Assembly (NCBI GenBank): GCA_015056315.1
Contig: SVGN01000013.1
Span: 1-55,409 of the forward strand
Length of the DNA stretch: 55,409 nucleotides
Source of the DNA: Clostridiales bacterium
GTDB lineage: Bacteria; Bacillota; Clostridia; Christensenellales; Aristaeellaceae
Reading direction: 5' to 3'
The notes below the pieces were generated by a model that was given only the letters and a program-made list of their open reading frames with translations, had not been told where the DNA came from and ran no database searches. This document shows positions 11,229 through 34,048 of this stretch, piece by piece. The translations under genes and the position numbers were made by a program. Numbering within the stretch: position 1 is the stretch's first letter; every line of letters starts with the position of its first letter.

Positions 11229-11276
11229 GCAAAAAGTGGGCGGTCTACCGGCCGCCCATCAATAACGACCATTTGA

Positions 11277-11304
11277 GACGAACGTTTTTACGTTCGTCTT
11301 TTTT
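11277..11304 (+). terminator. terminator after GH43 (10254-11228)
   Basis: GACGAACG (11277-11284) pairs with CGTTCGTC (11291-11298) around TTTTTA, followed by six Ts. Confidence 0.88.
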
Positions 11305-11391: not shown

Positions 11392-11420
11392 TTGACAGCC
11401 TATGGGGGGTATAGTATATT
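11392..11420 (+). promoter_or_regulatory. strong promoter of the arabinan operon
   Basis: A perfect -35 TTGACA (11392-11397), 17 bp and TATATT (11415-11420). The region is AT-rich, unlike its surroundings. Two inverted repeats follow at once. Confidence 0.85.
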
Positions 11421-11428
11421 AATATTAG

Positions 11429-11467
11429 TTTAGGTAAAACCTAAATGGTTTAGATTGTTCCAAACCA
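11429..11467 (+). promoter_or_regulatory. operator-like inverted repeats downstream of the arabinan promoter
   Basis: TTTAGGT (11429-11435)/ACCTAAA (11439-11445) is a perfect 7-bp dyad around AAA. It abuts TGGTTT (11446-11451)/AAACCA (11462-11467). Lying just after the -10 box, they are placed to bind a repressor. CCAAACC (11460-11466) also occurs in the dyad upstream of the ArsR-like gene. Confidence 0.6.
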
Positions 11468-11495
11468 AAACAACGCTTGCGGAGGTTTCCTGAGT

Positions 11496-12911
11496 ATGAA
11501 ACGGTTCTGTCTGGCGCTTTGCCTGATTCTTCTGTGCGCCTGCCTGCCCGCTGCGGCAGAGGAAATGCCGCAGATCCCCAAATTCCGCGAGGTATCTGTT
11601 CACGACCCGTCCATCATCAAGGCTGAGGACGGTTATTACTATATCTACGGCAGCCATATGGCCGCCGCCCGCAGCCAGGACCTGATCCGCTGGGAGCAGA
11701 TCTCCCGCGATGCGCAGGCGGGCTGCACCCTGTTCACCGATGTGCAGCAGGAATTGAAGGAGGCGCTCACCTACGCCCGCACCAACACCTTCTGGGCACC
11801 GGATGTGCAGCAGCTGGCCGATGGCCGCTACTATTACTACTACTGCACCTGCGAGGGCTCCTCGCCCCTTTCCACCCTGGGCGTTGCCGTAAGCGACAAG
11901 CCCGAGGGCCCTTACGAGGATCTGGGCATCTTCCTCAGAAGCGGTATGGGCGGCTACAACGCCAGCGTATACCCCAACGTGGTGGATCCCCACACCTTCT
12001 TCGACAAGGAAGGCAAGCTGTGGATGGTCTACGGCAGCTACTCCGGCGGCATCTACATTCTGCAGATGGATCCCAACACCGGCTTCCCGCTGGAGGGGCA
12101 GAACTACGGCAAGAAGCTGCTGGGTATGAACCACAGCCGCATCGAAGGCCCCTACATCCTCTACAGCCCGGATACCGACTACTACTACCTGTTCCTTTCC
12201 TTCGGCGGCCTGAATGCAGCCGATGGCTACAACATCCGCGTTTGCCGCTCCAAAAACCCGGATGGCCCCTACGTGGATGCCCTGGGCCAGGAGATGATCC
12301 GCTGCGGCGGTCGCCCCGGCACCTTCTTCAACGATGCCGACTACGTGGGCTACGGCGTTAAGCTGATGGGCGGCTACAAGTTTGCCGCATCCGCCACCGA
12401 TAAGAACAAGATCGCCATGGCGTACCGCTCCCCGGGCCACAACTCCGCCATCTACGATGAGGAGACCGGCCGCTACTTCATCGTCTTTCACACCCGCTTT
12501 GCCAACAGCGGCGAGGCGCACAGCATCCGCGTGCACCGGATGTACATGAACCAGGAAGGCTGGCCGGTGGTCTCGCCGCTGCGCTACGCAGGCGAGCCGG
12601 ACGGCCCCGTGGCCGAGGAAGCCCGCAGCGGGCTTTACAAGGTGCTCATGCATGAGCGGGATATCAACGGCGTGGAGCATGTTTCCAAGGAGGCCACCCT
12701 CCTGCCGGATGGTACCGTGACCGGTGCCTATACCGGCAGCTGGGTCTGTGAGGATGGCACGAACCTGACCATCACACTGGATGGAGTCGCCTACAAGGGC
12801 GTAATGCACACCGCCTGCGACCTGAGCCAGTCCTCCTGGAGCACCTGCTTTACCGCACTTGACGAAACCGGCGCAGCCCTGTGGGGCATCCGAGTCGCCG
12901 TGCAACCTTGA
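11496..12911 (+). CDS. secreted GH43 endo-arabinanase (arabinan endo-1,5-alpha-L-arabinosidase)
   Basis: The 471-residue protein begins with a signal peptide. The stretch LCLILLCACLPAAAEE could be cut by signal peptidase I after AAA or could hold a lipobox-like LCAC. The GH43 propeller shows VHDPSII (Asp37), NVVDPHTF (Asp164) and SRIEGPYI (Glu217), with YGSHMA and FWAPDV. A C-terminal domain of about 110 residues (GTVTGAYTGSW, TLDGVAYKG) matches the extra domain of longer arabinanases. It would cut arabinan outside the cell and release oligomers for the transporters downstream. A GGAGG site precedes the ATG. It is the first gene of the operon, and its TGA overlaps the next ATG by one base. 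Confidence 0.88.
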   Translation: MKRFCLALCLILLCACLPAAAEEMPQIPKFREVSVHDPSIIKAEDGYYYIYGSHMAAARSQDLIRWEQISRDAQAGCTLFTDVQQELKEALTYARTNTFWAPDVQQLADGRYYYYYCTCEGSSPLSTLGVAVSDKPEGPYEDLGIFLRSGMGGYNASVYPNVVDPHTFFDKEGKLWMVYGSYSGGIYILQMDPNTGFPLEGQNYGKKLLGMNHSRIEGPYILYSPDTDYYYLFLSFGGLNAADGYNIRVCRSKNPDGPYVDALGQEMIRCGGRPGTFFNDADYVGYGVKLMGGYKFAASATDKNKIAMAYRSPGHNSAIYDEETGRYFIVFHTRFANSGEAHSIRVHRMYMNQEGWPVVSPLRYAGEPDGPVAEEARSGLYKVLMHERDINGVEHVSKEATLLPDGTVTGAYTGSWVCEDGTNLTITLDGVAYKGVMHTACDLSQSSWSTCFTALDETGAALWGIRVAVQP

Positions 12912-15793
12912 TGGGGGTGAAGGGTTTGTTCAAAAAGATCGTATCGCTTCTGGCGGCGGCTGCGCTGCTGCTTTCCGGCACCGCCGTTGCACAGGAAGCC
13001 AACTGGATGGTCTTCTCCAGCCGCACAGAAGCCCTGTATACCGCTGCCAGCGCAGCCTATACCCTGCCGGTCTATACCGGTGAAAACGCCGACGCGCCCA
13101 CCCAGCTGGAGCTGGGCACCGGCGATGTGGGCGAGGCCCAGATCACTGCGCCCGAGGATGGCCTCTACGAGCTGTGGGTCACCTACCGGAACCTGGGCCA
13201 GAGCTCCCTGCCCACCGAGCTGACCGTTTCTGTGGATGGCCAGCTGCCCTTCTACGAGCTGCGCCGCATCAAGCTCTACTCCCTCTGGCTGGATGACGGC
13301 ATCTTTCCCACCGACCGCTACGGCAACCAGGTGGCCACCACGCCCTATGCCGCCGATACGCTGCAGACCGTGGGCCTGACCGACTCCGCAGGCCGCATCG
13401 ATGTGCCCTTCCTGCTGGAGCTGAAGGCAGGCGTACATACCATCGGTTTTCAGGTGCTGGATGGCAACATCAGCATCCAGGGCCTGAGCCTGCGCGCCCC
13501 CGAGACCGTGCCCGCCTATCAGGGCGGCGATGCCTCCGGCGATAACCTGATCGTCATCGAGGCCGAAAACATCAAGAGCCGCAGCGATTCCTCCATCCGC
13601 GGTGCAGGCGAGTTCAACGCCGTGCTCAGCCCCTATGATGTGGAGAACCGCAAGATCAACTATCTGGACGGTGCCTCCTTCGACGCTGCGGGCGATACCG
13701 TCACCTACGGCGTAACGGTGGAGGAAAGCGGCTGGTATCAGCTGGGCTTCTTCTACCGCCAGAGCGCCAAGGCCGATTTCCCCGTCTTTGTGGATGTGCT
13801 CATCGACGGTGCCCTGCCCTCCGAGGCGGCCCGTATGGTGCCTTTCGATTACGCCACCGGCTTCACCGCCAAGACCGTGGCTGCAGGCGATGCGCCCCAG
13901 ACCTTCTGGCTGGAGGCAGGCGAGCACGAGCTCTCCCTGCGCATCAACTGCACGGTGCTCACCCCTGTATACGAGACCATCGACCGGCTGCTCAGCGAGA
14001 TCAACGGCCTGTCGCTGGAGGTGGTTCGCCTCACCGGCGGCATCACCACCGATAAGTACCGCGATTACGACCTGCTCACCTACATTCCCGATCTGGTGGA
14101 GATCCTCAACGGCTGGGCAGACGATTGCAGCGCCATGGTGGAGCTGATGAAGACCTACAGCCCCGAAGCCAGCGGCAGCGCATTCTCCAACATGACCCTT
14201 TGCTCCGACCAGCTCCGCCGCCTTGCCGAGGAGCCGGAGGATCTGCCCCGCCGCCTGAGCGAGCTGAACACCGGCGCCAACTCCGCCGCCCGTATGCTGG
14301 CCCAGCAGCTGCAGGATATGGCCATCAACGACCTGTCCATCGACCAGATCTATTTCTACCAGACCGAAGCCCGGCTGCCCGAGAAGGCCTCCGCGCTCAA
14401 GAGCGCCCTGCTGGGCGTTGAGCGCTTCTTCCGCTCCTTTGCCGACCAGGACTACGCCGCCGGTACCGGCGAAAGCGACCATCTGCAGGTGTGGATGGGC
14501 CGCAGCCGCCAGTACGTTGAGCTGGTGCAGAACATGATCGACTCCCAGTTCACCCCCCAGACCGGTATCCATGTGGATATCTCCCTGATGCCCGATGCCA
14601 ATAAGCTGGTGCTGGCCAATGCAGCCGGTACCGCGCCGGATGTGGTGCTGGGCCTGCAGTATGTTGTTCCTTCCTATTTGAATATCCGCGGTGCGCTGTA
14701 CGACCTTACCCGCTTCGAAGACTTCGGCGAGGTGGCCCAGCGTTTCTCCCCCGGCCTGTTCGTGCCCTATACGCTGGAAGACGGCGTGTACGCCATGCCC
14801 GAGACGGTCAACTTCTGGGTCATGTTCTACCGGCAGGATATCCTCAACGGTCTGGGCATCAACGTGCCCGACAACATGGACGAGGTAAAGCAGATCCTGC
14901 CCGAATTGCAGCGCCGCAATATGAATTTCTACTTCCCCACTGCCGGTATGGTGGGTATGAAGGTATTCCCCGGCACGCTGCCGCTGATCCTTCAGGCGGG
15001 CGGCTCCATCTACGGCGATACCGTAGCCGACACCACGCTGGATAGCGAGATCTCCCTCAAGGGCTTCCGCGAGATGACGGAGCTGTTCACCATCTACAAC
15101 ATGCCCACCGACGTGCCCTCTCCCGGCTTCTACCAGCAGTTCCGCGATGGTACGCTGCCCATCGGTATTGCCGATCTGGCTACCTACAATCTGCTTCTCA
15201 ACGCCGCCCCCGAGCTGGATGGTCTGTGGAACATCGATCTCTTCCCCGGCCTGGTGGATGAGGAGAGCGGTCAGGTGCTGCGCTGGACCACCGGCGGTGC
15301 CGAGACCATGGCCATCCTCTCTGCCACCGATATGCCCGAGGAAAGCTGGACCTTCCTCAAGTGGTGGTCCTCTGCCGAGGTGCAGAGCGAGTTCGGCAGT
15401 CTGCTGCAATCCACCTACGGCTCCGAGTACATCTGGCCCACCGCCAACACCGAGGCCTTCGCCTCCCTGCCCCTCAAGAGCGAGCACAAGCAGGTGATCA
15501 TGGAGCAGATGGAGTGGATGACCGAGGCTCCCTGGGTGCTGGGCACCTACATGCTGGAGCGCGAGCTCTCCAACGCCTTCATCTCCGTAACGGTGGATGG
15601 TGTGGATGCCCGCCGCGCCATGGATACGGCGGTAAAGCGCATCAACCGCGAGACCTACCGCAAGCTGGAGGAATTCGGCTACTACAAGGATGGCGAGATG
15701 CTCAAGGAGTTCCCCACGCCGGATGTGAGCATCGTACAGAACGCCATTGACGAATGGAACCGGAAGCACGGAAAGGAGGCGGGCGTACAATGA
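12911..15793 (+). CDS. giant extracellular solute-binding protein with N-terminal beta-sandwich and helical domains
   Basis: At 960 residues the protein is twice the size of a normal sugar-binding protein. A signal peptide ([17 protein letters not shown]) is followed by two carbohydrate-binding-like beta-sandwich segments, at about 25-190 and 210-370 ([20 protein letters not shown] and [11 protein letters not shown]). A helical linker region (about 390-510) precedes a family-1 solute-binding domain from about 515 to the end ([53 protein letters not shown]). There is no lipobox cysteine. The ATG overlaps the arabinanase stop (TGATG), and the stop overlaps the first permease start (ATGA). It probably captures arabino-oligosaccharides at the cell surface. 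Ligand and anchoring are unknown. Confidence 0.82.
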
Positions 15794-16674
15794 TCACCAA
15801 AAAGAGCACCCCGTACCTGTTTCTTGCCCCCTACCTGATCCTCTTTTCGGTCTTCATCATCATCCCCACAGCGATGGCCATCGGCCTGTCCTTTACCAAC
15901 TACAACGCCGTGCAGACCCCCGAGTTCATCGGCCTGACCAACTACATCAACCTCTTTACGCAGGATAACATCTTTCTGCAGTACGTGCTGCCCAACACCA
16001 TCCTCTTCTCGCTGGTGGTCGGCCCGGTGGGCTACATGCTGGCCTTCTTCCTGGCCTGGAGCCTGAGCCAGCTTACCAAGCTGCCCCGCACCATCCTGGC
16101 GCTGATCATCTACTCGCCCTCCATGACCATGGGCGTTGCCATGACGGTGGTGTGGCGCACGGTGTTCCTGGGCAACCAGAGCGGCATTGCCAACTATGTG
16201 CTCACCCAGCTGGGCATCATCACCGAGCCCATCATCTGGATGCAGAACACCCAGTTCATCATGCCCATCGTCATCATCGTGGCGCTGTGGTCCTCCATGG
16301 GCGTCGGCTTCCTGGCCATGCTGGCGGGCCTGCTCAACATCAGCCCCGAGCTGTACGAGGCCGCCGCGATCGACGGTGTGCGCAACCGCTTCCAGGAGGT
16401 GTTCTACATCACCATCCCCTCCATGAAGCCCCAGATGCTCTTCGGCGCGGTCATGGCCGTTACCAACGCCTTCCAGGCTGGCAACATCGGCGTGATGCTC
16501 ACCGGCTCCAACCCCACGCCCCAGTACGCCGCCCAGCTGATGGTGAACCACATTGAGGATTACGGCTTCGCCCGCTACGAGATGGGCTACGCCGCCGCGG
16601 TCTCCGTGGCGCTGCTGGCGCTGATCTACGCATTCTCCTTCGTGGCCCGCAAGCTCTTTGAAGAAAAAGATTAA
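15790..16674 (+). CDS. sugar ABC transporter permease 1 (first pair)
   Basis: The 294-residue protein has six transmembrane helices ([20 protein letters not shown] onward). The EAA loop [18 protein letters not shown] contacts the ATPase. It belongs to the family-1 carbohydrate uptake (MalF-like) permeases. ATG at 15790 overlaps the preceding stop (ATGA), with AAAGGAGG upstream. A start further upstream at 15754 would lie inside the previous gene. It pairs with the next permease. Confidence 0.9.
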
Positions 16675-16690
16675 GAAAGGAGTTGTTCCC

Positions 16691-17560
16691 ATGGCTGCTG
16701 TAGGCGGAACCAAGGTAAACCCGAAGAAATTCGACAAAAGCCAGATCCCGCTGTATCTGTACCTGATCCCGGTAGCGATCTTCATGGGCGCTCCGATCAT
16801 CTACATCTTCAACCACGCATTCAAGCCCATGGATGAGCTCTACGCCTTCCCGCCCAAGTTCTTTGTGGATCATCCCTCCGGCATCAACTTCCAGAACCTG
16901 CTGCAGACCGCCGCCGGTTCCTCCATACCGATCTCCCGCTACATCTTCAACTCGCTGGTGGTAACGGTGGCCGTGGTGCTGCTGAGCATCCTCATCTCCA
17001 CCATGGCAGGCTTCGCCCTGAGCAAGATGAAGTTCAAGCTCAACAAGACCGTGTTCGAGGTCAACAACCTGGCGCTGATGTTCGTGGCCACCGCCGTTAC
17101 CATCCCGCGCTACCTGACCATCAGCTTTGTGGGCATTCTGGATACCTACTGGGCCCACATCATGCCGCTGATCGCCATGCCGGTCTGCCTGTTCCTGATC
17201 AAGCAGTTTATCGACCAGGTGCCCAACTCCCTGCTGGAGGCGGCGCAGCTGGAGGGCGCAAACGCCTTTACCGTGTACCGCAAGATCGTTATCCCCATGA
17301 TCAAGCCCGCCATCGCCACCGGTGCCATCCTCACCTTCCAGGCGGTGTGGAACAATGTGGAGACCTCCAACCTGTTCACCAGCAGCGAGGGCATCCGCAC
17401 GCTGGCGTTCTACATGAACACCCTCTCCGGCGTTGGCACGGTGCAGGGCCAGGGCATGGCCGCCGCCGCTGCGCTGATCATGTTCCTGCCCAACCTGCTG
17501 CTGTTCGTGATCATGCAATCCAACGTAATGAACACCATGGCGCACAGCGGTCTCAAGTAA
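16691..17560 (+). CDS. carbohydrate ABC transporter permease 2 (first pair)
   Basis: The 289-residue MalG-like permease has an EAA loop, SLLEAAQLEGANAFTVYR, and multiple helices. ATG at 16691 follows AAAGGAG. It lies 16 bp after permease 1 and is followed within 11 bp by the YIP1 gene. It presumably forms the membrane channel for the giant binding protein. Confidence 0.9.
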   Translation: MAAVGGTKVNPKKFDKSQIPLYLYLIPVAIFMGAPIIYIFNHAFKPMDELYAFPPKFFVDHPSGINFQNLLQTAAGSSIPISRYIFNSLVVTVAVVLLSILISTMAGFALSKMKFKLNKTVFEVNNLALMFVATAVTIPRYLTISFVGILDTYWAHIMPLIAMPVCLFLIKQFIDQVPNSLLEAAQLEGANAFTVYRKIVIPMIKPAIATGAILTFQAVWNNVETSNLFTSSEGIRTLAFYMNTLSGVGTVQGQGMAAAAALIMFLPNLLLFVIMQSNVMNTMAHSGLK

Positions 17561-17571
17561 GGAGGATACAG

Positions 17572-19614
17572 ATGAAAAGAACTGCCGTATGGCTGATGCT
17601 GATCCTCCTGCTGGTGGCTGTGTGCCTGCCTGCCCAGGCTGCCACGCCCTACCGCACCTTTACCCTGGGTGTGGATAAGTTCGACATGGTGGAGACCCAG
17701 ACCGCTTACGAGCCTGTGCGCACCATGATCCGCTTCGGCGAGGAGACCCTGAAAATGCCCTCCGACCTGCGCCTGGGCCCCGACGGCAACCTGTACATTG
17801 CCGATACGGGCAACAAGCGCGTGCTGGTGGTTACCAAAGAGGGCGAGTTTGTACGCGAGATCAGCGACAAGCGCAATATGAAATCCCCCATGGGCATTTA
17901 TGTGGATGATGCCCTCAACCTCTACGTGGCCGATGAAAAGGCCCGCGCCGTGCTGGTGTACGATGCCCAGGGCAGCTTCGTAATGGAGTATGTAAAGCCC
18001 ACCCACCAGCTCTTTGGCGAGACCGCGCCCTATGTGCCCCAGAAGGTGGTGCTGGATAAGCGCGGCAACCTGTACATCGTCTCCAAGGGCAATACCAACG
18101 GCGTTGTGCAGATCAGCCCCGTGGGCGGCGGCGAGTTTCTTGGCTACTACGGTGCCAACACCTCCCGCATCTCGGTGCTCACCCACATCCGCCGCTTCCT
18201 CTTCGGCAAGGATTCCGCCGCCGTGGGCAACATCGTGCCCATCTCGGTGCGCAACCTGACCATCGATGAAAAGGGCATGGTCTACACCGTTACCGAAGCG
18301 GGCGACGACAGCGCCCTGCGCCGCCTCAATGTGGCGGGCAAGAACACCATGACCCCCGACTGGCAGGTGGAGCTGAACACCTCCGTGGCGGTAAACAGCT
18401 ACGGCTCCATCTTTACCGCCAATGCCAACGGTACCATCATGGAGTACACCGCCGAGGGCGATATGCTCTTCCTCTTCGGTGCCAACGACGTGCTCAGCGA
18501 GCAGCGCACGGGTATGTTCAAGTCGGTCGAAGGCCTTGTGGTGGATGACGACTACACCATCTTCGTGCTGGATGCCAACCTGAACAGCATCCAGGTGCTG
18601 CGCCCCACCGAGTTTGCCGATCTGGTACACCGTGCCTTCACCCTGTTCCAGGAGGGCAAGTACGCCGAGTCCAAGGCCCCCTGGAGCGAAGTGCTGCGCA
18701 TGAACTCCCTTTTCACCTACGCCTCCACCGGTCTGGGCGAGGCCCTCTACCGGGAGGGCAACTACGAGGAGGCCATGGAGGCCTTCCGCAACGGCGGCTA
18801 CCGGCAGGGCTACTCCGATGCCTGGTGGGAGCACCGCTCCAACCTGCTGCACGCCAACATCGATAAGGTCATCTACGTGCTGGTGGGCGTTATCGTGCTG
18901 TGGCAGCTCATCAAGCTGCTGGACCGCAAGCTGGGCATCCTCAAGCCCCTCAGGTGGCTGAAGGAAAAGATCCTGGGCGTAAAGCTGATCGATCAGGTGC
19001 TCTACGGCTTCCAGATGCTGCGCAACCCCTACGATTGCTGCTACGGCATCAAGCACGAGAAGCGCGCCGGCGTGCTCAGCGCCCTCATCCTGCTGGTCAT
19101 CTTCTTTGTGGAGTATGTAGCCAACAAGTACTTTGCGGGCTTCCTCTTCAAGACCATGCCGGATGGCTACTACGAGCTGCTCAACGACTTCCTGATGGTC
19201 TTCGGCGTGTATGCGCTGCTGGTCATCTGCTGCTACCTGGTGTGCACCATCACCGATGGCGAGGCCCGCTTCCGCGATCTGTTCATTACCGCAGCCTATG
19301 CGCTCATGCCCATGATCGTGTTCCAGCCCATCGTGCTGCTGCTCTCCAATGTGCTCAGCTTCAATGAGGAGTTCTTCATTACCCTCATCAACGTGGTCAG
19401 CATCGGCTGGACGGCCCTGCTCATCGTACTGATGCTGATGTACCAGAACGACTTCACCATGAAAAAGACCCTCAAGACCATCGTGCTCACGCTGTTCTGC
19501 GTGCTGGTGGTGGTGGCGCTGGTCGTGGTGCTCTACATGCTCATCAGTCAGCTGGTGGACTTTATCGCGTCCATCTACGGAGAGGTGGTGTATCGCTTTG
19601 TTAAGAAGGTTTAA
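17572..19614 (+). CDS. secreted NHL-repeat / TPR-like / YIP1-family membrane protein
   Basis: The product has 680 residues. A signal peptide (to about residue 23, PAQA-AT) leads into NHL-type propeller repeats, about 50-340. These include MPSDLRLGPDGNLYIADTGN, KSPMGIYVDDALNLYVAD and VVLDKRGNLYIVSKG. A short TPR-like pair follows (FQEGKYAESKAPW, ALYREGNYEEAMEAFRNG), then one transmembrane helix (VIYVLVGVIVLWQLI). The C-terminal domain of about 200 residues has several helices and is of the YIP1 type (NPYDCCYGIKHEKR, TDGEARFRDLFITAAYAL). GGAGG precedes the ATG at 17572. The design suggests an extracellular sensor or scaffold fixed to the membrane beside the transporter. No function is known to me. 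Confidence 0.75.
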   Translation: MKRTAVWLMLILLLVAVCLPAQAATPYRTFTLGVDKFDMVETQTAYEPVRTMIRFGEETLKMPSDLRLGPDGNLYIADTGNKRVLVVTKEGEFVREISDKRNMKSPMGIYVDDALNLYVADEKARAVLVYDAQGSFVMEYVKPTHQLFGETAPYVPQKVVLDKRGNLYIVSKGNTNGVVQISPVGGGEFLGYYGANTSRISVLTHIRRFLFGKDSAAVGNIVPISVRNLTIDEKGMVYTVTEAGDDSALRRLNVAGKNTMTPDWQVELNTSVAVNSYGSIFTANANGTIMEYTAEGDMLFLFGANDVLSEQRTGMFKSVEGLVVDDDYTIFVLDANLNSIQVLRPTEFADLVHRAFTLFQEGKYAESKAPWSEVLRMNSLFTYASTGLGEALYREGNYEEAMEAFRNGGYRQGYSDAWWEHRSNLLHANIDKVIYVLVGVIVLWQLIKLLDRKLGILKPLRWLKEKILGVKLIDQVLYGFQMLRNPYDCCYGIKHEKRAGVLSALILLVIFFVEYVANKYFAGFLFKTMPDGYYELLNDFLMVFGVYALLVICCYLVCTITDGEARFRDLFITAAYALMPMIVFQPIVLLLSNVLSFNEEFFITLINVVSIGWTALLIVLMLMYQNDFTMKKTLKTIVLTLFCVLVVVALVVVLYMLISQLVDFIASIYGEVVYRFVKKV

Positions 19615-22168
19615 GCTGCTTGCCCTGCTGCTGGCGCTGGTGCTGGCATTCGGCTGTGCGGCGGCCTCTGCCGAGGCGGTCGCCCCGGCAGCACCTGCTG
19701 CAGCCCCGGAGGGCTACATCCCCGTAGGCGAAAACAGCCGCTTTACCCTGCTGCTCAAGCAGGAGACCATGGCCCTGATCATTCAGAGCAAGGCCACCGG
19801 CGAGATGCTCTACACCACCGTGCAGGATGCCAACACCGGCAACGCCACCTGGAAGGGCTTCTACCAGTCCGGCGTGGTGATCGAGTACCTGGAGGATGTG
19901 AAGGATAAGCCCATCCAGGCCGACTTCATCAACAACCCCAACACCATCACCTACGATTTCGGCGAGAACGCCTTCACCGCCCACATCACCTACACCGAGC
20001 TGGGCATCAGCTTCGATGTGCAGGTATCGCTGGACGAGGACGGCATCCACGTTCACCTGCCCTCCGACAGCATCGTGGAGACCAAGGACGAGACCTCCCT
20101 GGTCATGCTGGATGAGAACGGCCGGGAAGTGACCGTGGCCACCGCCAAGTACACCAAGAGCGCCGAGGAGAGCGAGTTCGTGCTCACCACCAACGACGGC
20201 GCTGCCTACAAGCTGAACAAATCCTACTATGTTTCCGGCAAGGCCGCCGAGGTGACCGTGAAGGACAGTGCTGGCACCAATCAGGTCACCCTGCCCCTTA
20301 CCAAGGAGCTGGCCGCCCCCTTCACCGTCTACGCCACCGATGCGGCAGGCAAGGCCGTGGAGCTGGATGCGGCGGCTGTGGCCTCTGTGCGGCAGGATCT
20401 GTTCATTACCGCCACCGCCAAGGATGGCTCCGCCATCCGCATCCCCAAGGAACGCTTCGTATCCGTCAGCGAATACAGCTACACCATCTCTTCTGTCTAC
20501 CTTTACCCCTTCATGGGGCACAGCGTGGCGGGGGAGGGGCAGGGCTACATGCTCATCCCCGATGGGCAGGGCGCGCTGATCGGCTTCGAGGATAACGAAG
20601 GCCGTTATTCCTCCCCCTACGATAAGCAGGTCTACGGCATGAACATCGGCGTGGAGGATCAGCTCAGCTCCGACACCCGCGTGCCCGCCGAGGATGTACT
20701 GGCCCCCTTCTACGGTATGGTGCATACCGATAAGCAGTTGGCCGTGCTCGGCGTGGTGGAGGAGGGCGATGTGGGTGCCCGCATCCAGGCCTACCCCAAC
20801 GGCGTGCGCAACCTGCCCTTCGACTGGGCCACCGCCAAGTTTACCTACCGTTTCGTGTTCAACCAGCCCATGGGCCCCAGCGCGGGCGCAGTGGCTACCC
20901 GCAACGCCCACCGCAGGCAGTTCGATCTTACCCAGCACTTCCTGCTGGAGGAGGGCGAGAGCGCTACCTATGCCGGTCTGGCCGTTGCCTACCGGGATTA
21001 CCTGACCCGCAAGGGCACCTTCCAAAAGGCGGAGCAGCGCCCCTTCGACATCCGGGTGGAATTTCTGGGTGTGGAGCGGGAGAACTACATCCTTGGCAAG
21101 CAGGATGTGGTCATGACCACCTTCGCACAGGCCGAAGAGATGCTGGAGCTGCTCAAGGCGGATGGCGTTGAGAACATCAGCGCCGCCTACCGCGGCTGGC
21201 AGACCGACGGCCTCACCGGCGGCGTGCCCACCACCGGCTGCGACCCGGCCCGCAGCCTCGGCGGCACCAAGGGCCTTGCTCAACTGAAGGCCGCAGCCGA
21301 TGAAATGGGCGTGGAGCTGTCTCTGGAGGCCGATGTGCTCAGCCTCAACACCGAGACCCACCCCACCCTCACCTTCAGCGCACTGAAGAAGATCACCTCC
21401 CAGACGTGGAGCAAGCCCACCTACGGCATGGTGTACGATACCCTCCACTACCTGAACCCCGTCTCCTCCCGGGATGTGGCCAAAAAGCTGATCGGGCAGG
21501 TAAAGGATGCGGGCATCGAGGGCATCTCCTTCACGGGCATCACCCAGCTGCTGGCAGACTACTACCATAAGGATGCCTACCACGACAGCAGCGAGATGGC
21601 CGCCATCTACACAGAGATCATCGCCGGGGCAGGCGAGGAGATGAATGTATCTCTGGTTCGCCCCAACGCTTATCTGTGGCCCCTGGCCGATGCCCTCACC
21701 GACCTGCCCATCGCAGGCAGCGACTATAACTACACCGATGCAGAGGTGCCCTTCCTGACCATCGCGCTGTCGGGCCAGGTGCCCTACTATGTGGAGTATG
21801 CCAACTTCCAGGCAAACACCAATGAGTTTTTCCTGCACCTGATGGAGCAGGGCGCGCGCCCCTCCTTCCTGCTCACGTGGGAGGATCCCATCAAGCTGCA
21901 AAACTCCAACTCCTCCGATATCTACTCCTCCCGCTTTGAGCTCTATCAGGCGCTGATCGCCCGCTGGTATAGCGAGCTGAACGCCCTGTACGAGACCGTC
22001 GGCCCGGATGCGGTGATCACCGATCATGTGCGCGTGGGCGATGTGGTCAAAGTGACCTGGTCGGAGGGCACGCAGGTATACCTGAACTTCGGCGACAAGC
22101 CTGCCGCCATGGACGGCATCACGCTGGAGAAACTGGAACATAAGGTGGTGAGCGGCAATGGCAACTAA
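19598..22168 (+). CDS. DUF5696-type secreted protein
   Basis: The 856-residue protein starts at a TTG (19598) with GGAGAGGTGGTG upstream and overlaps the YIP1 gene by 17 bp. The N terminus is a signal peptide (LLALLLALVLAFGCAAASAEA). The cysteine could be lipidated, although AFGC is a poor lipobox. Residues about 40-330 look like beta-rich modules. The remainder (YMLIPDGQGALIGFEDNEG, GAVATRNAHRRQFDLTQ, FTGITQLLADYYHKD) matches my recollection of the DUF5696 region. It has features of a TIM barrel related to glycosidases, for example NISAAYRGWQTDGLTGG. Catalytic residues cannot be assigned. It may be a surface glycoside hydrolase or glycan-binding protein for the same substrate. Confidence 0.68.
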   Translation: MLRRFKLLALLLALVLAFGCAAASAEAVAPAAPAAAPEGYIPVGENSRFTLLLKQETMALIIQSKATGEMLYTTVQDANTGNATWKGFYQSGVVIEYLEDVKDKPIQADFINNPNTITYDFGENAFTAHITYTELGISFDVQVSLDEDGIHVHLPSDSIVETKDETSLVMLDENGREVTVATAKYTKSAEESEFVLTTNDGAAYKLNKSYYVSGKAAEVTVKDSAGTNQVTLPLTKELAAPFTVYATDAAGKAVELDAAAVASVRQDLFITATAKDGSAIRIPKERFVSVSEYSYTISSVYLYPFMGHSVAGEGQGYMLIPDGQGALIGFEDNEGRYSSPYDKQVYGMNIGVEDQLSSDTRVPAEDVLAPFYGMVHTDKQLAVLGVVEEGDVGARIQAYPNGVRNLPFDWATAKFTYRFVFNQPMGPSAGAVATRNAHRRQFDLTQHFLLEEGESATYAGLAVAYRDYLTRKGTFQKAEQRPFDIRVEFLGVERENYILGKQDVVMTTFAQAEEMLELLKADGVENISAAYRGWQTDGLTGGVPTTGCDPARSLGGTKGLAQLKAAADEMGVELSLEADVLSLNTETHPTLTFSALKKITSQTWSKPTYGMVYDTLHYLNPVSSRDVAKKLIGQVKDAGIEGISFTGITQLLADYYHKDAYHDSSEMAAIYTEIIAGAGEEMNVSLVRPNAYLWPLADALTDLPIAGSDYNYTDAEVPFLTIALSGQVPYYVEYANFQANTNEFFLHLMEQGARPSFLLTWEDPIKLQNSNSSDIYSSRFELYQALIARWYSELNALYETVGPDAVITDHVRVGDVVKVTWSEGTQVYLNFGDKPAAMDGITLEKLEHKVVSGNGN

Positions 22169-23093
22169 GAAGGTAAAGAACCCCTACGCCAAGACCCGCC
22201 TCACCAAGCGGCGGCTCCGGGAATGGGGCTACGGCTACCTGTTCCTGCTGCCGTGGATCGTGGGTGTATGCATCTTCTTTGTGTACTCCATGGTCACCTC
22301 CCTCAACTACTCGGTGCACAAGATCGTGTTCGATCAGGGCGTGCAGACCCAGCCGCTGGAGTTCTGGTACAAGAACTACGTGGATGTGTTCACCCTGGAG
22401 ACCGACCTGCCCACCACGCTGGGCTCCTTCACCATCAGCCTGGTGCTGCAGCTGCCCATCATCATCGCCTTCTCGCTGATCATTGCCATGCTGCTCAACG
22501 GCAACATCCGCTGCCGTTCCGTCTTCCGCATGATCTTCTTCCTGCCGGTGATCATCGCCACCGGCCCGGTCATGAACATGCTCACCGCCCAGGGCGTGGC
22601 CTCCGTGCCCATGATGAGCGACGGCAGCCTTACCCAGCTGCTGGGCAACCTGCCAACGTTCATTTCCGAACCCATTACGGAGCTGTTCAACTCGCTCATC
22701 CTCATCCTGTGGAATTCCGGCATACAGATCCTCATCTTCCTGTCGGGCCTGCAGAAGGTATCCTCCACCATGTATGAGGCTGCCAAGATCGACGGTGCCA
22801 ACGGCTGGGAGAGCTTCTGGAAGATCACCCTGCCGATCCTCAAGCCCATCATTCTGCTCAACTCGGTCTACACGGTGGTGGCGCTGGCCACCGGCGGCAA
22901 CAATGAGATCATCGAGCTCATCTACTCCGCCACCTACCTCACCCCCTGGACCAAGGGCTACAGCTACGGCATGGCCTTCAGCTGGATCTACACCGCCATT
23001 ATCGCGGTGGTGCTGGTGGTCGTGTTCCTGCTCCTGCGCGAGAAGAGCGACAAGCATGTGGTCTACGAGCAAAAACGCATCAAGCTGCACTGA
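22158..23093 (+). CDS. sugar ABC transporter permease 1 (second pair)
   Basis: The 311-residue MalF-like permease opens with a basic leader and helix (YLFLLPWIVGVCIFFVYS). The EAA loop is MYEAAKIDGANGWESFWK. Its ATG overlaps the DUF5696 gene by 11 bp, and the next permease starts 16 bp after it. It differs clearly in sequence from the first pair, so it is not a recent duplicate. Confidence 0.9.
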   Translation: MATKKVKNPYAKTRLTKRRLREWGYGYLFLLPWIVGVCIFFVYSMVTSLNYSVHKIVFDQGVQTQPLEFWYKNYVDVFTLETDLPTTLGSFTISLVLQLPIIIAFSLIIAMLLNGNIRCRSVFRMIFFLPVIIATGPVMNMLTAQGVASVPMMSDGSLTQLLGNLPTFISEPITELFNSLILILWNSGIQILIFLSGLQKVSSTMYEAAKIDGANGWESFWKITLPILKPIILLNSVYTVVALATGGNNEIIELIYSATYLTPWTKGYSYGMAFSWIYTAIIAVVLVVVFLLLREKSDKHVVYEQKRIKLH

Positions 23094-23109
23094 AAGGAGG
23101 GAGAACCGT

Positions 23110-24084
23110 ATGCGTCTTTCCATGCCCCTCAAGGGCGCCCGCAAGGACTACTATAAAAAGAAGCTGCTGGGCAGCAACGACCGCCGCGGCTGGATCATGA
23201 GCTTCGTGGTGTATCTGCTGCTGATCACCATCGCGTTCATCTACCTCTATCCGGTGCTGTACATGTTCTCCCGCTCCCTGATGGGCAAGAACGATCTGCT
23301 GGATGCATCCGCCAAGTGGATCCCCAGCTCGGTAACGCTGAGCAACTATCACTCAGCCATTGCCACCATGGATTACTGGAACTCCCTGCTCAAGAACCTT
23401 GCCATTGCGCTGGTCTCCACCCTGTGCCAGGTATTTGTGTGCTCGCTGGCTGGCTACGCCTTTGCCCGGTACAAGTTCCCCGGCAAAACGCTCTGGATGG
23501 GCGTGCTCATCCTCTCCTTCCTGCTGCCGGCGCAGACCATCGCAGTGCCCAACTTCCTCTTGTTCAACTCCTTCAAGATGGTAGACGGCACCCTGAAGCC
23601 CTTCATCATCACCTCCATATTGGGGCAGGGCTTCAAGAGCTGCCTGTGCATACTCATCTTCTACAACTTCCACCGTCAGGTGCCCCAGTCGCTGATCGAG
23701 GCTGCCGAGATCGACGGTGCGGGCCACATCAAGGCCTATTTCCAGATCGCCATCCCGCTGAGCGCGGCGGCCATCATCGTGGTAACGCTGTTCTCCTTCG
23801 TCTGGTACTGGAACGAGGTGGATCTGGTGCGTACCTACCTGGGCAGCACCAACGACCGCAACACCGGCCTTACCACCCTGATGCTGGAATTGAACAAATT
23901 CGAAGACAGCTACAACGCTGTCTACGCCACCCACGCACAATCCACCACCTCCACCAACCGCCTCAACGATGCCATCAAAATGGCGGGCACCATGCTCTCC
24001 ATTGCACCGATGATGCTGATGTACTTCTTCCTGCAGAAGCAGTTTGTGGAGTCTGTGGATAAGGCCGGTATCACCGGCGAGTAA
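23110..24084 (+). CDS. carbohydrate ABC transporter permease 2 (second pair)
   Basis: The 324-residue MalG-like permease has a longer cytoplasmic N terminus (about 30 residues), then IMSFVVYLLLITIAFIYLYP. The EAA loop is LIEAAEIDGAGHIKAYFQ. AAAGGAGGG lies just before ATG 23110. A longer in-frame start inside the preceding permease is rejected. A 110-bp gap with hairpins separates it from the binding-protein gene. Confidence 0.9.
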   Translation: MRLSMPLKGARKDYYKKKLLGSNDRRGWIMSFVVYLLLITIAFIYLYPVLYMFSRSLMGKNDLLDASAKWIPSSVTLSNYHSAIATMDYWNSLLKNLAIALVSTLCQVFVCSLAGYAFARYKFPGKTLWMGVLILSFLLPAQTIAVPNFLLFNSFKMVDGTLKPFIITSILGQGFKSCLCILIFYNFHRQVPQSLIEAAEIDGAGHIKAYFQIAIPLSAAAIIVVTLFSFVWYWNEVDLVRTYLGSTNDRNTGLTTLMLELNKFEDSYNAVYATHAQSTTSTNRLNDAIKMAGTMLSIAPMMLMYFFLQKQFVESVDKAGITGE

Positions 24085-24102
24085 ACCCTGCAAAGGCGGT
24101 GG

Positions 24103-24166
24103 GGGAGAGGGCACAGCCCCTGCCCCCGCTTGAAAAACACCCCGAATCAAAGCCCGAAAAGGGCTT
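24103..24166 (+). promoter_or_regulatory. intercistronic stem-loops before the binding-protein gene
   Basis: A GC-rich imperfect hairpin (about 24103-24129) is followed by AAGCCC (24150-24155)/GGGCTT (24161-24166) around GAAAA. They lie between the permease stop and the SD. No T tract follows, so a role in mRNA stability or processing that raises binding-protein output is more likely than termination. Confidence 0.45.
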
Positions 24167-24194
24167 CGAGAAATATTAAAGGAGGCTACCCATT

Positions 24195-25622
24195 ATGAAG
24201 AAGCTGGTATCTCTGGTTCTGGCTCTGGTCATGATGCTGTCTCTGGTCGCCGTTGCCGGTGCCGAAGAGTACAACATGCCCGCCATGAACACCACCGACC
24301 CCATCCACCTGTCTGTTATGACCTGGGACGATTTCGAAATGACCGAAGCGCTGGCCGCTGCCTTCACCGAGATCTACCCCAACATCACCGTGGAAGTGAT
24401 CCGCACCACCACCGCCAACGTGACCGCGGACCTGACCAACTACGCTGCCAACAACAGCCTGCCCGACATCTTCTTCTTCCTGGATCTGGATCCCCTGCTG
24501 GCCAGCCCCTACCTGGCTGACATCACCGAGTACATCGAGAACGACGAAGAAGCCCAGACCAAGCTGTACCCCACCATCCGTCAGATGGGCTACATCGATG
24601 GCCAGCGCTGCTTCTTCATGGGCGGCGAGTTCCTGCCCGCTACCGTGTACCTGGATGCCAACGTTTTCGAGACCATGAACGTTGAAATGCCCGCTCAGGA
24701 TTGGACCTGGGAGCAGTTCGTCGAGCTGACCCAGACCATGACCGACCCCACCCAGAACATCTGGGCTTACACCAACGGCATGTACGCTCCCGTAACCTTC
24801 GGCCCCATCTCCCTCACCGAGAACGCCATCGGCGAATTCGGCTGGAACGGCGAGAGCTACAACTTCGAGTCCGGCTGGGCCGAGGCTCTGGAGCTGCAGC
24901 AGGAGAACGTACGTCTTGGCAACACCTGCGTGGGCGGCTCCGACGCTTACCTGGCTGTTGACCCCGCCAACGAGTGGCCCGGCCAGACCGGTCACGTTGC
25001 CGTGCTGACCGACGCCTTCTGGACCCTGAACAACATCTACACCAAGCCCCTGGCTCTGGACCGCGGCATCAAGATGGTGCCCTACAATCCCCCCGTTGGC
25101 GCTGAGAACGGCGGCCAGCTGGCCTTCCTGGACAGCGTTGCTGTTTCCTCCGGCTGCCAGTATCCCCGTGAGGCTTACGAGCTGATGAAGTACCTGTGCT
25201 GGGGCAAGGATGGCTGGATGAAGCGCTGCGAGCTCTTCCCCACCATCGTTTGGGAAGGCACCGAAGACAAGGCTTACTCCGTGCCCAACTGCCTGCCCAT
25301 GATCCAGGACGACGAGCTGAACCAGGCTTTCTCCGCTCTGATGCCTGACCTGGGCTACTGGAACGACTGGGTATCCTTCATGGAGAACATCAAGAACCCC
25401 GTCACCTGGGGCGCCCGCACCATCCCCGGCTTCAACGCTTTCCTGGCCAACTACTACAACGGCGCTGACTTCAACGGCGTTGTGGGCATCGAAGCTGCCA
25501 TCGATCAGGGCGCTGTGGACGCTTACGACTACACCGCGCTGCTGGCTGAGCAGGGCCGCTACTACTACGACCAGGCCATGACCGCTTTCTTCGAGCAGTA
25601 CGGCCAGCCCGCTGCCGAATAA
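24195..25622 (+). CDS. family-1 extracellular sugar-binding protein
   Basis: The 475-residue protein has a clear signal peptide (KKLVSLVLALVMMLSLVAV, cut near AGA-EE). The mature part starts HLSVMTWDDFEMTEALAAAF and is an ordinary solute-binding fold. There is no lipobox cysteine. Codon use shifts to GCT/GTT/CTG-rich compared with the neighbouring permeases, as expected for an abundant protein. AAAGGAGG precedes the ATG. It closes the transporter part of the operon and is followed by a terminator. It most likely serves permease pair two. Confidence 0.88.
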   Translation: MKKLVSLVLALVMMLSLVAVAGAEEYNMPAMNTTDPIHLSVMTWDDFEMTEALAAAFTEIYPNITVEVIRTTTANVTADLTNYAANNSLPDIFFFLDLDPLLASPYLADITEYIENDEEAQTKLYPTIRQMGYIDGQRCFFMGGEFLPATVYLDANVFETMNVEMPAQDWTWEQFVELTQTMTDPTQNIWAYTNGMYAPVTFGPISLTENAIGEFGWNGESYNFESGWAEALELQQENVRLGNTCVGGSDAYLAVDPANEWPGQTGHVAVLTDAFWTLNNIYTKPLALDRGIKMVPYNPPVGAENGGQLAFLDSVAVSSGCQYPREAYELMKYLCWGKDGWMKRCELFPTIVWEGTEDKAYSVPNCLPMIQDDELNQAFSALMPDLGYWNDWVSFMENIKNPVTWGARTIPGFNAFLANYYNGADFNGVVGIEAAIDQGAVDAYDYTALLAEQGRYYYDQAMTAFFEQYGQPAAE

Positions 25623-25660
25623 GCAGCATGGATGCACTGAGCATCTCGGCTTAAAAGCCC

Positions 25661-25691
25661 GGGGGAGCAGCCATGGGCTGCTCCCCCTTTT
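25661..25691 (+). terminator. terminator inside the arabinan locus
   Basis: GGGGGAGCAGCC (25661-25672) pairs with GGCTGCTCCCCC (25676-25687) around ATG, followed by TTTT. GH51 starts 40 bp later with no convincing promoter, so GH51 and GH43 are probably expressed by read-through at a lower level. Confidence 0.85.
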
Positions 25692-25730: not shown

Positions 25731-27686
25731 GTGCGCAAGGTATGTATTCTTCTCCTGATCCTGAGCCTGCTGTGCGCGCCCTGCGCGTCCCTTGCGGCTA
25801 CGCTCACAGCCGACCCCGCCGCCGCCACCGCAGAGATGAGCGATACCCTCTACGGCCTGTTCTTTGAGGATATCAACCATGCCGCAGACGGCGGCCTGTA
25901 TGCGGAGCTTTTGCAGAACCGCTCCTTCGAGAACCAGGATCTGCTGGATCCCAAACCCCACCAGCACTACAACGGCTGGCAGTTCAACCTGAAAAACAAG
26001 GGCAAGGCAGCAGCCGTGCCCACCGGGGATGATCCCCTTCATGCCAACAACCCCACCTATATGCGCATCACGGTGGAGGCAGCGCCCTACCTGCTCAGCA
26101 ACATGGGCTATGCCAGCACCGCCTTCAGCGGCGGCGTGCCGGTGGATGCGGGCGCACAGTACGATTTTTCGGTATGGATGCGCAACACCGGCGATTATAC
26201 CGGCGGCATCACGGTGGCCATCACCGACCGTTCCGCCAACCCGCTCAGCGAGGCTTTTGCCATCACGCCCACCGGCAGCTGGCAAAAGTTTGAGCACACC
26301 TTTACTTCGCAAGCAACTGCCGATGCATGCCTCACCATCACTTTGGAGGGCACCGGCACTCTGGATATCGATATGGCCAGCCTGATGCCCCGGGAGCGCT
26401 TCGGCGCAGAATGGCCCGGCGGCGGTCTGCGCACCGATCTGGTGGAGACCCTGATGGCCTTGAACCCCAGCTTTCTGCGCTTCCCCGGCGGCTGCGTGGC
26501 AGAGGGCAGCTATGTATGGGCCAATGCCTACAACTGGAAGGATACCGTAGGCCCTGTGGAGCAGCGCAGGGAGAACTTCAATACCTGGGGCTATATGCAA
26601 TCCTACGGCATCGGGTTCTTCGAATACTTCTGCCTGGCCGAGGCGCTGGGCGCAGAGCCGCTGCCGGTGGTGCATTCCGGCTTGCTCTGCCAGGCCCGCG
26701 AGGTGCGGGAAGCGCCCCTGACCATGGAGGCCACCCGGGCCTACGGGCAGGATATACTGGATCTGATCGAGTTCGCCACCGGCGATGCCTCCACCCCCTG
26801 GGGCAGCCTCCGGGCGGAGATGGGCCACCCGGAGCCCTTCCGGCTCAACTATCTGGCCATCGGCAACGAAAACTGGGATAACATCTACTTCGACCGCTAC
26901 GCTGTTCTTTCGCAGATGGTAAAGGAAAAGTACCCGGAGATCACCTGCATCGTGGCGGCCGGGCCGGTGGCTGAGGGCGCACTGCCCCAGCACAGCTGGC
27001 ACCAGATCCGTACCCGCTTTGCGGAGGATCTGGTGGATGAGCACTACTACATGGATAGCGCCTGGTTCCTGAAAAACGTTGGCCGCTACGACCGCTACCC
27101 CCGCACCACCATGGTGTTCCTGGGCGAATATGCCGCCCATGAGCCGGTGCAGGGCGGCCGCCGCCCCAACAACCTGTACAGCGCTCTGTGCGAGGCGGCG
27201 TACATGACCGGCATCGAGCGCAACAGCGACCTGGTACGCATGGCCTGCTACGCGCCCCTTCTGGCCAGAGACGGTATGTTCCAGTGGACACCCGACCTGA
27301 TCTGGTTCAACGCCCGGGATGTGCTTTTGACCCCCAACTACTATGTGCAGCAGATGTTTGCCGCCACCGTGGGCGACCATGTGGTGGAAAGCGCTCTGGA
27401 GGGCGAGGGGCTGTACCATGTGGTCACCCGCACGGAGGATGCGCTCTATGTAAAGGTGGTCTCCCTTGCCGAGACCGAAACGCCCCTGACCCTTACCCTG
27501 CCCGGTGTGCCGGACGGCACCGCCGGTTTCGTGCAGCTCTGTGGCGAGCGACGCATGACCAACGCCTTTACTGCCCCCGACCGCATCGTGCCCGCAGACG
27601 GGGTATGCCCCATCTTGGGCGGGGTGGCGGAGACGGTGCTGCCTGCATACTCCGTGACCATCTTCACCTTCCCGCTCGCTCAGTAA
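25731..27686 (+). CDS. secreted GH51 alpha-L-arabinofuranosidase
   Basis: The 651-residue protein has a signal peptide (ILLLILSLLCAPCASLA) and the GH51 sequence LYGLFFEDINHAADGGLYAE. A carbohydrate-binding-like insert (about 95-215) precedes the barrel. The acid/base is Glu380 in LAIGNENWDN and the nucleophile Glu466 in MVFLGEYAAH. GH51 enzymes release terminal arabinofuranose; most Bacillota forms are cytoplasmic, so the signal peptide is notable. The start is GTG 25731, after GAAGGGG. A nearby ATG at 25724 is out of frame. It is followed after 21 bp by GH43. Confidence 0.92.
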   Translation: MRKVCILLLILSLLCAPCASLAATLTADPAAATAEMSDTLYGLFFEDINHAADGGLYAELLQNRSFENQDLLDPKPHQHYNGWQFNLKNKGKAAAVPTGDDPLHANNPTYMRITVEAAPYLLSNMGYASTAFSGGVPVDAGAQYDFSVWMRNTGDYTGGITVAITDRSANPLSEAFAITPTGSWQKFEHTFTSQATADACLTITLEGTGTLDIDMASLMPRERFGAEWPGGGLRTDLVETLMALNPSFLRFPGGCVAEGSYVWANAYNWKDTVGPVEQRRENFNTWGYMQSYGIGFFEYFCLAEALGAEPLPVVHSGLLCQAREVREAPLTMEATRAYGQDILDLIEFATGDASTPWGSLRAEMGHPEPFRLNYLAIGNENWDNIYFDRYAVLSQMVKEKYPEITCIVAAGPVAEGALPQHSWHQIRTRFAEDLVDEHYYMDSAWFLKNVGRYDRYPRTTMVFLGEYAAHEPVQGGRRPNNLYSALCEAAYMTGIERNSDLVRMACYAPLLARDGMFQWTPDLIWFNARDVLLTPNYYVQQMFAATVGDHVVESALEGEGLYHVVTRTEDALYVKVVSLAETETPLTLTLPGVPDGTAGFVQLCGERRMTNAFTAPDRIVPADGVCPILGGVAETVLPAYSVTIFTFPLAQ

Positions 27687-27707: not shown

Positions 27708-28874
27708 ATGCATGTGCCCTTTCACGATCCGCTGGTGATCGCACTGGAAAACGAATATCTGGGCCTTTCTACCGATCTGCGCATCCCGGGCGTGATGACC
27801 CGCACCTCCCCCGACCTGCTCAGCTGGTCGGAGCCATTTCCGCTGCTGGAGCAGACCCCTGCCTCCGTAAAGCGCCATGTGGATACGGATCGCTTCTGGG
27901 CCCCGGAGCTGGTACAGCGGGGCGATGAATGGCGGCTCTACTGCTGCGCCAGCCGCTTCGGTACCACCCAGAGCGTGATCGGGCTGGCCAAAGCCAAGTC
28001 CCCCAAGGGCCCCTACACCTACGTGGGCGATGTGGTGGTCTCACAGCACAGCAGCACCTTTACCCAGGCCAACGCCATCGACCCCTGTGTGGTGGCGGAC
28101 CGGCAGGGCAACGATTGGCTGGTCTACGGCAGCTTCTTCGGCGGCATCCGCATCCTGCGGCTGAATGAGGAGGGCTTCCCGGCAGAATACCATGAGGGGC
28201 TGTGCATCGCAGGGGGCGGCCATCAGGCCATCGAGGGTGGGTATGTGTGGTACCATGCGCCCTCCGACCGGTTCATCCTCTTTACCTCCTGGGGCGACCT
28301 GAACGAGGATTACCACATCCGTGTGGGCTACAGCCGGGAGGTGACCGGCCCCTATCTGGATGCCAAGGGCCTGCCCATGACCGATCGGGATCCCATCCAC
28401 CACCCGGGCGATAAGCTCAGCGGCGGCTATCATTTCCAGCTGGAGGGCATGCCGGGGGTCAAGGCCACCGGGCACAACAGCCTGCTCCACGACCGGGATG
28501 GCAGCGTGTATCTGGTCAACCACGCCCGGCCTGAGGGCAAGGGCGGCAGGCCGTTTTTGCAGATCCGCCGCCTGCTGGTGAATGAGGAGGGCCGGGTGCT
28601 GGCTTGGCCCCTGTACTACGACGGTGCACCGCTGGCCCCGGCGGAGACCCTGCCGGAGCGGTGGCAGGTGGTGTACCTGTCCCGGCCCAACAACGGCGTT
28701 ACCTACAGCATCGGCACAACGGCACAGCAGGCGCAGATGCACCGGGAGGGCGAACAACTGACCCTGACCCTTTTCGGCACCGAATGGAGCGGCTTTATCT
28801 ACCGCCAGGGCGGACGCATCGCCTGTACCCTCCTCTCCCCGGAGGGGGAGAGCCTGTGGGGCATTGCCGAATAA
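27708..28874 (+). CDS. intracellular GH43 arabinosidase with C-terminal extra domain
   Basis: The 388-residue protein has no signal peptide. It shows FHDPLVI (Asp7), NAIDPCVV (Asp125) and AIEGGYVWY (Glu176), with RFWAPELV and YGSFFGGIRIL. The C-terminal 85 residues (QLTLTLFGTEWSGFIYRQ) resemble the tail of the secreted arabinanase at 11496, so the two are relatives split between outside and inside. AAAGGAGG precedes ATG 27708. It would hydrolyse imported arabino-oligosaccharides. Confidence 0.87.
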   Translation: MHVPFHDPLVIALENEYLGLSTDLRIPGVMTRTSPDLLSWSEPFPLLEQTPASVKRHVDTDRFWAPELVQRGDEWRLYCCASRFGTTQSVIGLAKAKSPKGPYTYVGDVVVSQHSSTFTQANAIDPCVVADRQGNDWLVYGSFFGGIRILRLNEEGFPAEYHEGLCIAGGGHQAIEGGYVWYHAPSDRFILFTSWGDLNEDYHIRVGYSREVTGPYLDAKGLPMTDRDPIHHPGDKLSGGYHFQLEGMPGVKATGHNSLLHDRDGSVYLVNHARPEGKGGRPFLQIRRLLVNEEGRVLAWPLYYDGAPLAPAETLPERWQVVYLSRPNNGVTYSIGTTAQQAQMHREGEQLTLTLFGTEWSGFIYRQGGRIACTLLSPEGESLWGIAE

Positions 28875-33992: not shown

Positions 33993-34048
33993 GTGAGGAT
34001 CCTTCCTTTCTCTGTATAAGGTAGAAATGGGGGAAAACTGCCCGTTTT

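Follow-up and report, generated by a model that had tools for sequence, protein, structure and literature searches.

A seven-gene core with two CUT1-type permease pairs, an NHL-TPR-YIP1 protein and a DUF5696 protein recurs in Bacillota beside varying binding proteins and polysaccharide enzymes

An operon in a 55,409-nucleotide stretch of DNA from a Clostridiales bacterium (contig SVGN01000013.1 of assembly GCA_015056315.1, here called the window) contains a recurrent core of seven genes, encoding a tethered solute-binding protein (SBP), the CUT1-type permeases PermA and PermB, a protein with NHL, TPR and YIP1 parts (NHL-TPR-YIP1), a DUF5696 protein and a second pair of permeases, PermC and PermD. 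The same order was found in phylum, class and named-genome samples, which is more than chance. Sequence comparison establishes the fixed order of the core, the joint presence and relative conservation of its parts, the GH129 fold predicted for the DUF5696 protein and, in most core-linked copies, the loss of its putative catalytic pair; the core is conserved, while the free SBP and the enzymes beside it are swapped. A reading that we regard as evenly poised is that the constant core imports fragments of plant polysaccharides, with exchangeable free SBP and enzymes, and that its two importers are held together.

In the phylum sample, the DUF5696 profile (PF18952) scored over its cut-off in 39 of 398 genomes, 37 of which had strong long forms and the other two about 26 bits; this search and the tethered-SBP profile search of the same genomes covered the best three candidates per genome. 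The 57 strong rows yielded 54 fetched loci and the window, the rows of G323 and G344 being left out, and when six weak-hit loci were included DUF5696 was present in 55/61 and NHL/YIP1 in 54/61 loci. The 80 named loci, the best 80 of at least 575 relatives, had the same gene order as far as their contigs extended and came mostly from Paenibacillus, but also from Acetivibrio, Thermoanaerobacterium, Lederbergia, Cohnella and metagenome-assembled genomes. The PF18952 cut-off was passed by 68 of the 245 genomes of the class sample, and 60 regions were fetched (45 with long and 15 with short DUF5696; 22 further hits above 100 bits were left out). A redundancy cut at 80% DUF5696 identity, applied to the window, L033-L086 and L093-L172, kept 98 loci, to which the 45 class loci were added without a filter, so that the resulting set of 143 loci is only approximately non-redundant.

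All seven core parts were present in 114 of these 143 long-DUF5696 loci (28/45 phylum, 50/53 named and 36/45 class loci), with an identical order in 108, and at least one partner gene accompanied DUF5696 in every case (45/45, 53/53 and 45/45). The recurrence in Clostridia and Paenibacillus stated in the initial annotation was borne out. Fourteen of the 29 incomplete loci ended within 400 bases of a contig end, and most of the others were second halves without the first. NHL and YIP1 were encoded by a single gene in some lineages and by two adjoining genes in others; NHL or NHL-YIP1 was in the block at 136/143 loci. The 15 short DUF5696 loci, which had neither NHL nor YIP1 in the fetched flanks and weak permease matches at two loci, are an unlinked natural control. 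A second complete copy of the core was found on another contig of the window's own genome (L033), adjoined by open reading frames (ORFs) of 473 and 404 residues that had no Pfam match at E 1e-5. At L177, the DUF5696 gene of an otherwise normal core was broken by two opposite-strand ORFs (263 and 498 residues), perhaps a mobile element.

Some loci carried one half of the core alone, either tethered SBP-PermA-PermB or NHL-YIP1-DUF5696-PermC-PermD, and the halves were in reversed order at 4/143 loci. Orphan first halves occurred at five loci (L241, L244, L246, L248 and L254). Six genomes (G062, G135, G165, G101, G040 and G082) had orphan halves alongside whole or nearly whole cores, the complete cores of the first three having been seen only outside those three-candidate searches. 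In G240, the second half (L074) and the first half (L248) were on separate contigs, and no further copy was found in that genome. A profile of the N-terminal part of the tethered SBP detected this protein in all 37 of the strong-DUF5696 genomes among the 398, with 36 strong hits and, in G103, a 63-bit piece at a contig edge. Only two other strong hits were found among the 398, in G104 and G154, on contigs of 3.8 and 4.3 kb. Seven more genomes, none with a long DUF5696, gave weaker matches, of 58-157 bits at best, in the form of shorter relatives. Proteins of about 380-560 residues in G007, G054, G093, G127 and G157, genomes without long DUF5696, resembled in part the half of the tethered SBP that carries the CBM35-like domains.

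The core and its surroundings differed in how far they were conserved. Over 82 loci the mean pairwise identity was highest for PermA (0.60) and PermB (0.59), followed by PermC (0.45), PermD and the tethered SBP (0.44 each), NHL (0.40) and DUF5696 (0.34). The identity matrices of the core parts correlated at 0.89-0.96 with one another and at 0.57-0.70 with that of the adjacent SBP-sized ORF, values that indicate joint inheritance and not contact, since shared ancestry alone yields such correlations. In a comparison of 69 loci that included only adjacent ORFs matching an SBP profile, the SBP domain of the tethered protein had a mean identity of 55% and 56 columns at 95% or more, compared with 30% and 4 columns for the adjacent free SBPs. 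A lipobox-like motif was present in 53/69 free and 5/69 tethered SBPs, and 110 of 118 tethered proteins had an N-terminal hydrophobic segment. The N-terminal half of the tethered protein matched the structure chains 5x7g (E 1e-10), 3wnp and 2w47, in a part that we take to be CBM35.

The neighbours of the core were variable. The first downstream neighbours, scanned for 93 of 104 loci, included 33 SBP_bac_1, 10 GH26, 6 GH30, 3 GH113 and 3 GH10 proteins, and the first upstream neighbours, all 73 of which were scanned, included 45 SBP_bac_1, 5 LacI and 1 ABC_tran. Adjoining enzymes included a GH43-CBM6 protein in L072 and a GH26-CBM35 protein in L048. Among the first 61 loci, relatives of the GH51 and AbnB-like enzymes of the window were found nowhere but in the window, and for its other GH43 a single weak relative turned up, in L054. 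The proposal that the operon is a two-transporter arabinan capture machine therefore did not survive: the core adjoins differing polysaccharide enzymes elsewhere, including those of a xylan locus in Caldicellulosiruptor bescii, and an arabinan-specific machine is ruled out.

BPD_transp_1 was above cut-off in all four permeases of the window, and across the loci a loose EAA pattern was found in 119/121 PermA, 119/121 PermB, 120/141 PermC and 136/136 PermD proteins. The window has one SBP per permease pair, the tethered protein and SBP2, and gene order would assign each to its pair. The MalK-type OB domain (OB_MalK) was found at four places in the genome, all outside the window. In the NHL-TPR-YIP1 protein, NHL (44.8 bits) and Yip1 (PF04893; 40.3 bits, cut-off 28.6) were above their cut-offs and the TPR matches below. 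The layout consisted of an NHL propeller (residues 28-345), TPR helices (347-408), a long helix (411-454) and YIP1 (481-651), and the structure matches were propellers confined to residues 41-351. No described role was found in the open-licence literature for YIP1 (PF04893) and NHL, as a fusion or an adjacent pair with TPR, beside CUT1 permeases.

These data are open to another explanation, namely that the operon encodes two ordinary CUT1 importers that differ in chain-length or side-chain specificity, the NHL-YIP1 and DUF5696 proteins being surface accessories that make no contact with the permeases. We consider this a serious possibility, although on balance an improbable one. In its favour, both pairs come with an SBP and EAA motifs, and the pair A/B stands alone with its SBP at the five orphan first halves. 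To our knowledge, however, CUT1 loci do not carry NHL-YIP1 or DUF5696, while here NHL or NHL-YIP1 belongs to the block at nearly all loci, and G240, whose only core is split, retains both halves. The two-importer explanation is in effect that of Rodionov et al., who treat XloEFG and AxoFGE of C. bescii as two transporters in the part of their paper concerned with that locus (PMC8579813).

The DUF5696 protein of the window scored 495 bits against PF18952 (cut-off 25.6) and had no match to PF11308, the GH129 profile; only TraK_N appeared, below cut-off (E 0.01). Its predicted structure has the GH129 three-domain fold with a TIM barrel. An hhalign comparison with the GH129-like protein L089 aligned the C-terminal part only. 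The catalytic Asp of GH129 (435 in NagBb, 486 in ZGAL_3152) and the acid/base Glu appear to be replaced by Gly647 and Val687 in the window, and by Thr and Thr in L072, the C. bescii-type copy. The Asp/Glu pair was kept in 15/143 module proteins (6/90 in the phylum and class samples), compared with 15/15 members of the short clade (L220-L234; 561-668 residues, without the module), in which the two residues are 43 positions apart. All 15 short proteins also have Cys where the module proteins mostly have Asp (127/143; position 658 in L034). Judged by these residues, most module DUF5696 proteins have lost the putative catalytic pair, and the short ones are probably genuine, uncharacterised GH129-like glycosidases. 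A mapping of residues through GH129 relatives in the phylum was dropped as uninformative, because PF11308 matched 0/299 genomes and the control was equally silent.

The initial annotation had suggested a cell-surface enzyme; the glycosidase-like fold was upheld, and the putative catalytic pair was missing from the window protein and most module copies. It is accordingly quite improbable that DUF5696 is an active GH129-like surface glycosidase that trims the chain before import, given the residues in the window and L072 and the contrast with the short clade, although an alternative catalytic set is conceivable, since ZGAL_3152 has only the Asp in common with NagBb. Still less credible is the idea that the tethered SBP, pair A/B and NHL-TPR-YIP1 are a surface glycan sensor or gate controlling import or expression and not an importer, because the core includes neither a regulator nor a kinase or diguanylate cyclase, the propeller fold is found in a great many proteins, and the EAA motifs of A/B are mostly intact, which suggests coupling to an ATPase.

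The reading of the core as an importer of plant-polysaccharide fragments with exchangeable specificity would, in the window, operate as follows. A secreted arabinanase would cut arabinan outside the cell, and SBP2 would hand arabino-oligosaccharides to permeases C and D. Carrying two CBM35-like domains, the tethered SBP would retain the chain, or a shared ligand, at the membrane and serve permeases A and B; the ligand of this constant protein might be a shared sugar unit or else a partner protein. The propeller and TPR of NHL-TPR-YIP1 would be outside and YIP1 in the membrane, and this protein, together with DUF5696 as an anchored pseudo-glycosidase, could keep the glycan and the two importers in one place. 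Both permease pairs would be driven by a MalK/MsmK-type ATPase whose gene lies elsewhere, and the GH51 and GH43 enzymes would complete the cutting.

Several points weigh against this reading, 1) the existence of orphan halves means that the two need not be transcribed together, 2) most orphan-bearing genomes also hold whole cores, which leaves G240 as the one clean test of interdependence, 3) correlated identity matrices are expected for any co-inherited genes, whether coupled or not, 4) the conservation of the tethered SBP may come partly from Paenibacillus-heavy sampling, 5) contact between the core parts is something we infer, 6) the model of DUF5696 is only moderate, with a mean predicted local distance difference test score (pLDDT) of 68 and a predicted template modelling score (pTM) of 0.75, 7) the catalytic positions were placed by strand assignment and the short clade, without residue-level superposition and 8) the 15 module proteins that keep both residues imply that some may be enzymes.

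A bolder form of the importer reading, which we hold to be rather unlikely, is that the two CUT1 importers, the tethered CBM35-SBP, the YIP1-anchored propeller and the pseudo-GH129 form a single membrane complex that grips the chain, feeds the two linked importers and is directed to xylan, mannan or arabinan through a swap of the free SBP and enzymes alone. If true, such a complex would be a Gram-positive functional counterpart of the SusCD-type outer-membrane complexes and would give the NHL-YIP1 and DUF5696 proteins a role. More generally, the core bears on the way in which Gram-positive bacteria deal with long fragments of plant polysaccharides at their membrane, and C. bescii offers a way to test this widespread core, two of whose fixed parts lack an explanation. 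If the "GH129" of that organism is a pseudo-glycosidase, its label and the enzyme count of its locus need correcting.

The operon itself is real. Gene calls and profile searches placed the genes from the AbnB-like GH43 to the last GH43 in succession on one strand (Table 1), and neighbouring genes across 11496-24084 overlapped or were no more than about 20 bases apart, as had been claimed for the gene starts; SBP2 was set off from PermD by a 110-base gap. The annotated arrangement of two distinct permease pairs flanking the NHL/TPR/YIP1 protein and an 856-residue DUF5696 protein agreed with the order and the profiles, and the two binding proteins, like the permease pairs, were clearly distinct from each other. 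The tethered SBP lies in a 970-codon frame (12881-15793) in which translation more probably starts at the ATG at 12911, which overlaps the AbnB stop, and in the PermA frame (15754-16674) the ATG at 15790 is likewise favoured. The operon probably starts at the promoter-like site at 11392. The promoter and hairpin scans overall gave no more sites than shuffles (3 compared with a mean of 5.7, and 11 compared with 10.6), so that only the quality and position of this site and of the hairpin at 11275-11300 are notable. Two adjoining palindromes, TTTAGGT-AAA-ACCTAAA and TGGTTTAGATTGTTCCAAACCA, lie at 11420-11467 between the promoter and the first gene and are candidate operators for a regulator; for the second of them, at 11446-11467, the pattern of the arms had no further exact match in the genome sequence examined.

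Table 1. Features of the operon and its upstream region, in window coordinates
Feature	Position	Strand	Basis or remarks
Terminator-like hairpin with T run, 11 pairs, 3' of upstream GH43 gene	11275..11300	+	hairpin scan
Promoter-like site, TTGACA-17-TATATT	11392..11420	+	promoter scan; 11/12 matches
Inverted repeat just 3' of promoter, operator candidate	11446..11467	+	sequence scan
GH43 endo-arabinanase, AbnB-like	11496..12911	+	626 bits, under NCBIfam equivalog cut-off of 750; signal-like N-terminus
Tethered binding protein, xloE counterpart	12911..15793	+	N-terminal hydrophobic segment, two CBM35-like domains, helical linker, SBP domain
PermA, CUT1-type permease, xloF counterpart	15790..16674	+	profile match
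PermB, CUT1-type permease, xloG counterpart	16658..17560	+	profile match
NHL-TPR-YIP1 protein, counterpart of X in C. bescii operon	17572..19614	+	profile and structure comparison
DUF5696 protein, GH129 fold, putative catalytic pair lost (Gly647, Val687)	19598..22168	+	PF18952
PermC, CUT1-type permease, axoF counterpart	22158..23093	+	profile match
PermD, CUT1-type permease, axoG counterpart	23110..24084	+	profile match
SBP2, free solute-binding protein (the exchanged one), axoE counterpart	24195..25622	+	profile match
GH51-type alpha-L-arabinofuranosidase	25731..27686	+	with CBM_4_9 match
GH43	27708..28874	+	profile match

Elsewhere in the window, at 3403-5067 (minus strand), 8037-10076, 32727-35458 (minus strand) and 43003-44829, there were genes for GH2, GH42, rhamnose isomerase, an FGGY kinase and a GDSL-GH88 protein. 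This gene content gives the wider window the look of a rhamnogalacturonan I locus, which fits arabinan side chains as the target. Two more CUT1-type transporters were seen at 37338-40796 and 45965-49557 (minus strand), one with Pfam-matched permeases and a DUF3502 protein, the other with an SBP and permeases matched by purpose-built profiles only.

The arrangement of the core is partly known: the same operon has been published within the C. bescii locus for xylan degradation, where it is not named as a unit. That locus is described as xloEFG-X-GH129-axoFGE-xynF-..., with two CUT1 transporters and induction by xylan, and MsmK is given as the shared ATPase (Rodionov et al. 2021, PMC8579813); X is left unnamed, and the relevant passages of the paper do not discuss the GH129 catalytic residues. 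An operator of the regulator XynR is printed upstream of Athe_0174 (PMC12285236). The printed 20-mer occurred once in L072, with 20/20 identity, 150 bases 5' of the tethered-SBP gene, which identifies L072 as the C. bescii xylan locus or a close relative; it had no match in the window at up to three mismatches. The AviABCD system of C. bescii (Athe_0595-0598) was dropped as a counterpart, as a GH5 endoglucanase gene is reported to adjoin it. Deletions of another transporter locus and of msmK have been published for C. bescii. No paper that named the core, or that described how widespread it is, its NHL-YIP1 part or the condition of DUF5696, was found in the open-licence literature, and the parts of PMC12710961 and PMC12096829 that were available had nothing on the seven-gene core.

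Compared with known systems, the core resembles CUT1 importers of the MalFG, MsmFG and AviABCD type in having two BPD_transp_1 permeases per transporter, an SBP, the EAA motif and, presumably, an ATPase in trans, but differs in that two pairs occur regularly with a tethered CBM35-like SBP, NHL-YIP1 and DUF5696. DUF5696 departs from the GH129 enzymes NagBb (5wzn) and ZGAL_3152 (5opq/8rzk) in being only 12-14% identical, in lacking a PF11308 match and in the loss of the putative catalytic pair. The C. bescii xylan locus, in the published description of its genes, has the same eight-gene order of SBP-permease-permease-X-GH129-permease-permease-SBP, free SBP included, but carries xylanases and XynR/AraR where the window has the AbnB-like GH43, GH51 and GH43 enzymes.

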